The notes under the pieces were generated by a model that ran no database searches, had not been told where the DNA came from, and worked only from the letters and a program-made list of their open reading frames with translations. A stretch of DNA of 60,991 bases, from NCBI GenBank assembly GCA_034717495.1, contig JAYELL010000108.1, positions 76,902 through 137,892 on the forward strand, in the 5' to 3' direction. Each line of letters opens with the position of its first letter. Position 1 is the stretch's first letter. A program made the position numbers and the translations under genes. Source of the DNA: Chloroflexota bacterium (GTDB lineage: Bacteria > Chloroflexota > Anaerolineae > JAAEKA01). Shown here piece after piece: positions 46,233 to 48,679 of this stretch.

Positions 46233-46300
46233 GGGCATGAATGGCTGAGTAGGGACGTCATAGCCGACTCCGGAGTCGGTCTCCAGCCATTCATGCCCCA
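46233..46300. repeat. perfect 16-bp inverted repeat with nested palindrome across a stop codon
   Basis: The arms 46233-46248 and 46285-46300 are exact reverse complements. The right arm contains the TGA stop of the convergent cohesin gene. A perfect 16-nt palindrome (CCGACTCCGGAGTCGG) lies in the loop at 46265-46280. There is no T-run on either side. It probably folds in the 3' ends of both convergent transcripts. Confidence 0.85.
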
Positions 46301-46956
46301 ACGGAGCTACGCCGCGTCACCCTCGCCAGCAGAATCCCCACCAGCAATACGAGACCAACAACCGCCACCACCGGCAGCCAACGGGGGAACCCACCCGGGA
46401 ACAGGGAACCAACATCACCGGCCGCCGAGGAGTCCGCGCCGCCAGAGACGACCTCCGCCTCTGGAACGACCTCGACCTCATCAGATACCGGCAGAGCGGC
46501 GCCGGTGCTACCAGCCAACTGGATGCTATCGAGAGTCACACCGTGCTCACCTGGCGCCACCACGCGCCAGAGAATCGTTGCCAGGACCCCTTCGCCCGAA
46601 GCGCCGGGTTGATCTTTGCCCAGGGTGAACCCACCAAAGACCACCCGTCCCTCTGCGGCATCGCGCACATCGGGGCCCAACGGCTGGGGGCTGCGACCGG
46701 TACTGGCGAGAAAAGGCCCGAGCTCAACCGATTCCACGGCCAGTTGACCGGGATCGAAATTGATATCGAATTGGAAACCCAGGAGTCCCTCCACCTCCTG
46801 GACAGACACCACGGACACAAAGGAATCGCCGGCGGACAGGTGAGCATCGGGGTCGGGCATGGTCATCTGGAGGGTGCTGCCATCCTGGGCCGCAGTTGTC
46901 AGGGGAAGAACGAGGAAAACAAGGAACAAGGCGAGAAGGAGAGAAACGACACGCAT
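46291..46956 (-). CDS. cohesin-domain membrane-anchored surface protein
   Basis: This 221-residue protein has a signal peptide (residues 1-23, LLLALFLVFLVLPLTTAAQ), a cohesin-type beta-sandwich (about 30-150; LGFQFDINFDPGQLAVESVELG, VVFGGFTLGKDQPG, VLATILWRVV), a Ser/Ala/Gly/Glu spacer and a C-terminal transmembrane helix followed by RVTRRSS. Cohesins bind dockerins and build surface complexes. GGAG lies about 9 nt before ATG 46956. It is the last of three consecutive genes with such modules; the third in the row (47821-48561) carries a dockerin-like tail. Confidence 0.8.
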   Translation of the reverse strand: MRVVSLLLALFLVFLVLPLTTAAQDGSTLQMTMPDPDAHLSAGDSFVSVVSVQEVEGLLGFQFDINFDPGQLAVESVELGPFLASTGRSPQPLGPDVRDAAEGRVVFGGFTLGKDQPGASGEGVLATILWRVVAPGEHGVTLDSIQLAGSTGAALPVSDEVEVVPEAEVVSGGADSSAAGDVGSLFPGGFPRWLPVVAVVGLVLLVGILLARVTRRSSVGA

Positions 46957-47034
46957 GGGAAACGCTCCAGGCTTATTGTGAATTGCCAATTGGTGGATTG
47001 TCGTCATCGATATTTTGAAGTACAGCAATAGCAA

Positions 47035-47065
47035 ACAGGGGCAGCCCGGTTGAGGCTGCCCCTGT
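47035..47065 (-). terminator. hairpin after the second cohesin gene
   Basis: A perfect 12-bp stem (47035-47046 with 47054-47065, 7-nt loop). On the minus strand it is followed by TTGCTATTG, a weak T-run. Confidence 0.55.
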
Positions 47066-47087
47066 CATTGGAAGCGAAAGAATTAGG

Positions 47088-47747
47088 CTAGCGCTTGCGG
47101 CGCATCAGGGCATAGGCACCGCCAGCGGCGATGGCTGCACTGCCGGCCAGCAATGGCCAGAGCGAGAGGGCTGAAGCAGCGGGTGAAGCGCTGAACTCAC
47201 TCATCTCGACGGCAGTTGGTTCACATTGGACCAATTGTCCAACCGTTGCAGCGGTCGCAGCACCCGTTGGATCCAAAAGGGCAGTTGGGACTCCCACGCC
47301 AGTTGTCGTCAACAGGATCGGATAACTACCGGGCGCACCGTCGTAGCTGAAGTGAGCCACCACCAGCTCAACGTCGCCAGAAGCATACGTCCCAGCGCCC
47401 GCAGTGCATGATCCGGTTATCCAAGCATAGGGTGAGTTCTCGAAACCAACCTGGGTATTGAACGAGCAGCCCATTGCGGTCATATCCGCACCCGCGGTGA
47501 CTCCGTCGAGAGTCAACACGGCGAAATCGTATTCCAGTTCGATCTCATACCCGGCGAGCTCACCGACGACTCCCTGAGCCGTGATCACTACATCAATGTC
47601 TGAGGCAGTAGCACTGGGAACGGGACACTCTGCTGTCATCGTATTAAAGGTTACAGCATCCGGGCTTGCCGATGTTACAGCCGTTGCCAAGATCAGCAAC
47701 ATCAAAATATAGCCAACTATTGCGAGTTTTGAGAATTTCCGTGTCAT
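47088..47747 (-). CDS. cohesin-like surface protein with C-terminal anchor
   Basis: This 219-residue protein has a signal peptide (residues 8-27), a cohesin-like domain (YEIELEYDFAVLTLDGVTAG, VELVVAHFSYDGAPGSYPI) and a C-terminal hydrophobic helix ending in MRRKR, the shape of a membrane or sortase-like anchor but without an LPXTG. Three Cys in the outer domain could form disulfides. GGAAGGAG lies 5 nt before ATG 47747, so an in-frame start further upstream is unlikely. Cohesin membership is clear in the beta-strand pattern but weaker than in the neighbouring gene. Confidence 0.72.
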   Translation of the reverse strand: MTRKFSKLAIVGYILMLLILATAVTSASPDAVTFNTMTAECPVPSATASDIDVVITAQGVVGELAGYEIELEYDFAVLTLDGVTAGADMTAMGCSFNTQVGFENSPYAWITGSCTAGAGTYASGDVELVVAHFSYDGAPGSYPILLTTTGVGVPTALLDPTGAATAATVGQLVQCEPTAVEMSEFSASPAASALSLWPLLAGSAAIAAGGAYALMRRKR

Positions 47748-47820
47748 GATATCTCCTTCCCGGATATCTCTCACGAGGAAAACCAGGTGATGTGTGAATA
47801 TGAATATTATGAAAGTGGCC

Positions 47821-48561
47821 CTACGGACAGCTTACGGGGCCGATATTGCTGACAACCGCCAATACGTCTGATGATGTGATAAAGGGCAAACCATCAAGAT
47901 TCGTATCGTACTGGTAACCAGCGCTGCACCCGCCGCCCCAAGGGCCGATATTGCTAACAACGGCAAGCACATCTGACGAAGTTACAAAGGGCAGATTATC
48001 ACCATTCGTATCATAAAGGTGATACACTGCATATGAAGTGCTGCTCTCGGTGCCAAGCACAAATGGCGTACCCAAGTAATCCACCACCTGGCTATCGGAG
48101 AGGCTGACAGAGCTGCTTCCGCAGGCGACAACATCCAAACCGACAGTCGCAAGATTCCCAGGCGAATCTGCACCGGCACTGGTGCCCCAGCTATAATCCC
48201 CGAACTTCACATTGGTGGCTGCGATTGCCTCGAGGAAAGGAGTACCGTCGTCACCGCTGGTGGAGCGAAGGCCACCGTCGCTGAGGAAATCAGTCAAGGC
48301 AATATTGCCGCTCGTGTAGCCAAAATGGACAGCATCGAAGTTCACCTGGGTCTCATAGCCACCCACGTCAACGGGATCGCCTGCCAGAGCAACGGTCACA
48401 TCTGCTGGGCAACTATGATCTGCCCAAACAGGGCTCGTGCTCAACGTCACGTTCGCCGCCTCGGGCTGAGCCGGGATGGCCGGTGCAGCGGTTGCCAGCA
48501 GCAACACGCCCAGCAGCACGGCTACCACACCGAATTTCTGCAAATTCCTTCTTTGAAACAT
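47821..48561 (-). CDS. secreted cohesin-like protein with two dockerin-like repeats
   Basis: This 246-residue protein has a signal peptide (about residues 10-31), a cohesin-like domain (GGYETQVNFDAVHFGYTSGN, VKFGDYSWGTS, TVGLDVVACGSSS) and two C-terminal repeats, YDTNGDNLPFVTSSDVLAVV and YDTNLDGLPFITSSDVLAVV, each followed by SNIG. These look like the paired calcium loops of a dockerin, with two extra residues before the closing Asp. One protein thus carries both partner types. GGAGG lies near the ATG. It is first in the row of three genes. Confidence 0.8.
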   Translation of the reverse strand: MFQRRNLQKFGVVAVLLGVLLLATAAPAIPAQPEAANVTLSTSPVWADHSCPADVTVALAGDPVDVGGYETQVNFDAVHFGYTSGNIALTDFLSDGGLRSTSGDDGTPFLEAIAATNVKFGDYSWGTSAGADSPGNLATVGLDVVACGSSSVSLSDSQVVDYLGTPFVLGTESSTSYAVYHLYDTNGDNLPFVTSSDVLAVVSNIGPWGGGCSAGYQYDTNLDGLPFITSSDVLAVVSNIGPVSCP

Positions 48562-48650: not shown

Positions 48651-48679
48651 ATTATAGCATGCACAGCCATGATTGTAAA
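48651..48679 (-). promoter_or_regulatory. promoter of the cohesin/dockerin genes
   Basis: TTTACA (48674-48679), 17 nt, perfect TATAAT (48651-48656) on the minus strand; the leader to ATG 48561 is about 80 nt. Confidence 0.7.

Follow-up and report, generated by a model that had tools for sequence, protein, structure and literature searches.

Scaffoldins with a single cohesin are the closest described relatives of the proteins reported here. Monovalent adaptor scaffoldins (PMC11557425; e.g., those of Pseudobacteroides cellulosolvens) are secreted, non-catalytic proteins with one cohesin and one dockerin, for which a switch between types has been proposed, and nonSLH-anchoring scaffoldins (PMC11557425) are secreted proteins with a single cohesin and a C-terminal transmembrane helix. 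Non-cellulosomal cohesins and dockerins occur in bacteria and archaea, ANME archaea included (Peer et al. 2009, cited in PMC9012536). A 13-residue calcium loop has a precedent in the second repeat of the Ruminococcus flavefaciens dockerins of groups 1a to 1c (PMC2930009). Internal sequence symmetry is considered crucial for the dual-binding mode of dockerins, the biological relevance of which has been called elusive (PMC8063739).

Here, we report three consecutive genes (A, B, and C) in a 60,991-nucleotide stretch of a Chloroflexota genome of the class Anaerolineae (the window), which probably form an adaptor-plus-anchor cassette within a cohesin-dockerin surface system that is not cellulosomal, A docking through a plug and C, and probably B, serving as anchored receptors. 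In the terms of PMC11557425, A would be a monovalent adaptor (both modules assigned by profile-profile homology, with a non-canonical dockerin), and C is a nonSLH-anchoring scaffoldin, as perhaps is B. A would share the one-cohesin, one-dockerin, secreted, non-catalytic layout of the described adaptors but comes from Chloroflexota, stands without cellulases, has loops of 13 to 14 residues, and is missed by PF00404. C has the single cohesin, secretion, and C-terminal helix of the nonSLH-anchoring scaffoldins; set against these, there is no SLH module here, and the cohesin part of B is highly diverged. As in the non-cellulosomal systems described in PMC9012536, the host is not known for cellulose degradation and dockerins sit on non-glycosidases; unlike those systems, this one has an operon-like adaptor-anchor-anchor block and a lineage-specific symmetric dockerin. 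The R. flavefaciens group 1 dockerins likewise have a loop of more than 12 residues, but a long loop has been reported for their second repeat only, and internal symmetry for groups 4a and 4b alone (PMC2930009), whereas both loops of A are long and matched. The kind of protein and its non-cellulosomal use are already known (PMC11557425 and PMC9012536); in the literature searched, we found no description of the cassette, of its spread through Anaerolineae with anchors that differ, or of a matched non-canonical dockerin.

Locus and predicted anchored cohesins

A sequence-only reading had placed three cohesin/dockerin surface proteins in a row at this position, and all three open reading frames are indeed present, on the minus strand (Table 1). 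The intergenic gaps are 73 bp (A-B) and 131 bp (B-C), and a ribosome site (GGAG/GGAGG, read from the sequence) precedes each gene. The promoter before A fits the sigma70 consensus at 11 of 12 positions in a scan (consensus only) that found six promoter-like sites where 1.4 were expected in this region. The block is flanked upstream by ligA and by a convergent ppk2 (names from reading the translations). The source genome is 5.0 Mb in 120 contigs (95.6% complete, 3.4% contaminated).

Table 1. Features of the A-B-C block (window positions, or residues of A where marked aa)
Feature	Position	Strand	Description
Sigma70-like promoter 5' of A	48651..48679	-	TTTACA, 17 nt, TATAAT, extended -10; consensus scan only
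Gene A	47821..48561	-	246 aa; signal peptide; without C-terminal membrane helix
A cohesin-type domain	about aa 36-172		by profile-profile comparison with Anaerolineae cohesins
A dockerin-like repeats, both	aa 183-242		C-terminal
A repeat 1, YDTNGDNLPFVTSSDVLAVVSNIGP	47941..48015	-	14-residue loop, then predicted helix
A repeat 2, YDTNLDGLPFITSSDVLAVVSNIGP	47836..47910	-	dockerin-like repeat
Gene B	47088..47747	-	219 aa; secreted; borderline cohesin-type domain, conserved C-terminal anchor
Gene C	46291..46956	-	221 aa; secreted; Pfam cohesin and C-terminal transmembrane helix

Pfam profile searches upheld the domain calls of that reading in part. C passes the cohesin model PF00963 (29.0 bits, cut-off 24.1, E 1.4e-6), B is borderline (23.4 bits on the protein and 24.2 in the genome frame, against the same cut-off), and A matches neither PF00963 nor the dockerin model PF00404, the latter finding no match in the A orthologues either. 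An NCBIfam search gave nothing useful.

The best solved-structure match of the C orthologue profile, and the nearest solved relative of C, is the type II cohesin SdbA (2bm3, E 9e-4). No part is more conserved than the cohesin of C (71% mean identity), and the C-terminal hydrophobic helix of C was read from the sequence. B orthologues have no Pfam cohesin match and can barely be recognised as cohesins; their mean pairwise identity is 22% in the cohesin-like part and 73% in the tail, and B is a borderline case of what would be a fast-evolving cohesin-type protein. Its C-terminal anchor is conserved (PTAV...WPLLAG...RRK), and a tail of this type (PTAV..S...A, a hydrophobic stretch, RR[KR]) is found at the C-termini of at least six further large proteins from this genome; it looks like a shared surface-anchor signal, perhaps of a Chloroflexota C-terminal anchor family. 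The form PTAVTLSxLxA, hydrophobic stretch, RRR is common to B (window 47088-47220) and proteins at loci L108 to L113. C, and probably B, would be single-cohesin receptors held in the membrane by the C-terminal helix.

The A-B-C order is also present in four other genomes. It is collinear and adjoins ligA in G002 and G004, is collinear at a contig end in G003, and in G034, from another family of the class, appears without ligA as A followed by the end of B and a remnant of C in a frame-broken assembly. In G001, A alone was seen, cut by the contig end. Co-occurrence of the block with dockerins was followed in seven genomes, several of them incomplete. Among the sampled members of the window species' family, G005 alone is without A-B-C; it lacks A and has neither a Pfam cohesin nor a Pfam dockerin.

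In G002 to G004, Pfam gives no clear cohesin other than C and one paralogue, and each genome has 6 to 9 dockerin matches. With the high conservation of the C cohesin, this would suit C serving the canonical dockerins of secreted proteases as a general receptor, with A and B a separate adhesive pair in a shared operon. We regard that arrangement as possible yet doubtful, as the A-B-C order is kept wherever it is readable, G034 included.

Adaptor-like protein A

A is called cohesin-related by profile-profile comparison only, because it lacks a PF00963 match. Against Anaerolineae cohesins, of which representatives were confirmed by Pfam, its N-terminal domain aligned with a probability of 97.8 (hhalign; E 9.8e-13, 115 columns) and scored 76.6; the highest score among 40 column shuffles was 17.7. 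In other families of the class, the A-derived profile also picks up proteins in which a canonical DxDxDG dockerin comes after a cohesin, the order seen in A. All matches in a PDB sequence search with the A profile were insignificant (tryptases ranked first, and the one dockerin chain, 2y3n, had E 0.16), and an AF2 model of mature A from four sequences was discarded (pLDDT 34).

The repeat motif of the C-terminal tail occurs exactly twice in the window, with none expected by chance. Compared with 20 canonical Chloroflexota dockerins, the repeats aligned with a probability of 84 (hhalign; E 7.5e-6, score 30.2; maximum of 100 shuffles 16.6, reversed 7.1), as two loop-helix segments in tandem, collinear with the canonical set over 59 columns spanning both repeats. 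An AF2 model of the repeat region alone was weak (pLDDT 50), with a short strand pair and a helix preceded by a loop per repeat. Foldseek with this model against 350,542 PDB chains gave no single significant match (best E 0.74), the nine best matches and 16 of 23 overall being dockerin-bearing chains; in a second look with VIA-align, all 15 rows shown were dockerin entries (Z 2.1 to 3.8). As a set, and by no one match, these structure matches support a predicted dockerin fold for the repeats.

Two extra loop residues had been noted from sequence, and this holds: the loops of A run from D1 to D14, against D1 to D12 in canonical dockerins. Both 14-residue loops of the window species retain D1, N3, D5, and the final Asp. 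In five relatives, the loops have 13 residues (one extra), and the acidic ligand at position 5 is replaced in all five by S, V, G, or A, so the third acidic ligand is kept only in the window's species. A canonical 12-residue loop with D or N at positions 1, 3, 5, and 12 was not found in A. Invariant are the last loop Asp, a Val in the helix after it, and flanking Cys and Tyr residues. Of the "calcium repeats" first proposed, the dockerin-like pair stands by profile-profile comparison, and calcium stands in part, ligands being lost in all five relatives.

Matched drift of the two repeats

The two repeats average 80% identity within a protein, against 42% for repeat 1 versus repeat 2 across species. 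The true pairing outscored all 719 other pairings of the six A sequences, which are few and related; with the close pair G001/G002 thinned to one, it still beat 119 of 119. The residue pair before the last loop Asp varies by species (SS, IA, AA, SS, TS, or SG) and is identical in both repeats of every species; we take this pair to correspond to the residues changed in the S45A/T46A mutant dockerin of C. thermocellum (2ccl title). Canonical dockerins of the window genome are not matched in this way (41% within versus 41% between), and those of outgroup Coh-Doc-Coh proteins are less matched than A (58% within versus 45% between).

The identical residues are mostly on different codons, which argues that protein-level selection, beyond recent conversion, keeps the repeats alike. 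Four of the six species share codons at the chance rate (6/17, 8/20, 7/18, and 5/15; expected 6.4, 7.6, 6.8, and 5.8), and recent gene conversion was therefore rejected as the sole cause of repeat identity. Sharing is above chance in the window species (12/22; expected 8.1) and G002 (14/20; expected 7.4), in which conversion may have contributed.

This matching bears on whether the repeats are a decaying, non-binding dockerin and A a plain secreted cohesin or adhesin-like protein, as the missing Pfam dockerin match and the variation of the third acidic ligand and of loop length in all relatives could suggest. We consider this improbable, because decay would not preserve the matching of two copies, which stay 80% identical while synonymous codons are mostly randomised, and because the Asp, Val, Cys, and Tyr named above are invariant. 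The pattern rather suggests a symmetric, species-specific plug, which would bind in two 180-degree orientations (the dual-binding mode). More tentatively, A could represent a dockerin of a new type, with both of its loops altered in length and calcium chemistry and its repeats matched by selection, giving each lineage a private dual-orientation adaptor-anchor pair. The matched drift would offer a natural series in which to ask whether selection acts on the dual-binding mode, and it may supply protein engineering with orthogonal plug-socket pairs.

The A-type dockerin is present in one copy per genome; a search of seven genomes found no other protein with it (best other E 0.047), and a set of clients sharing the plug was rejected on that result. 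A single protein holding both halves of a pair, with cohesin and tail diverging at similar rates (49% and 41% mean identity), could also self-polymerise, the tail binding the cohesin of the next A to make a fibre that B and C only tether or decorate. That seems unlikely to us: the halves of one adaptor would be expected to differ, given the proposed type switching (PMC11557425), and a fibre of A would not account for B and C always being its neighbours. Under the adaptor-plus-anchor reading, A would be a secreted monovalent adaptor, the C-terminal symmetric plug of which docks on an anchored cohesin, plausibly that of B or C, and its own cohesin would be a different site, offered to other secreted proteins.

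Possible partners in the genome and the class

The scaffold was at first described as standing without enzymes, which is true locally only: other parts of the genome contain 12 classical dockerin matches, several on proteases. Nine of the 12 open reading frames were scanned with Pfam, among them an S8 subtilase, C25 and M28 peptidases, and a DMFA2_C/CBM96 protein. No glycosidase was found on the dockerin-bearing frames (nine by Pfam, the other three read by eye), and a cellulosome was rejected on this basis. The clients of the cassette would be these dockerin-bearing proteases and adhesin-like proteins encoded elsewhere in the genome. If the adaptor-plus-anchor reading is right, cohesin-dockerin plugging would be a way of assembling surfaces that is general to the class Anaerolineae, its probable cargo being proteases and adhesin-like proteins, not cellulases.

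A second adaptor-anchor pair lies on contig C105 of the same genome, with a Coh-Doc protein followed by a Coh-TM-zinc ribbon protein. Homology, gene order, and this second, canonical pair support the original module assignment, in which A has its own cohesin and a dockerin-like tail and is followed by two anchored cohesin-type proteins. At that locus (L027; G000:C105:20000-26411), a VIT-VWA-like protein with a C-terminal anchor precedes the Coh-Doc protein (canonical dockerin) and the Coh-TM protein with its zinc-ribbon tail. Elsewhere in the class, similar adaptor-anchor neighbours were seen by eye, with a cohesin ending in YLPVVKR (G149), a cohesin with a PEP-type tail (G065), and cohesins with LysM-like repeats (G145 and G022). 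Among 249 sampled Anaerolineae genomes, 115 have cohesins, 105 have dockerins, and 91 have both (odds ratio, without phylogenetic correction, 32.5).

A repeat-less A-like cohesin paralogue with a YLPLLLASR end (L028:5689-6255, G000:C28) lies between a methyltransferase and a SARP-type regulator, with the same order around it in G001 to G004 (L018 to L020, L022). The motif [IV]YLP[LV][LIV]xR recurs C-terminally after cohesin or dockerin modules in many Anaerolineae proteins (L050 to L072) and is a possible, as yet unrecognised, sorting or anchoring signal. In one C25 peptidase (L032:5960-6111, G000:C101), the dockerin is followed by a terminal tandem run of RRPQTTF repeats.
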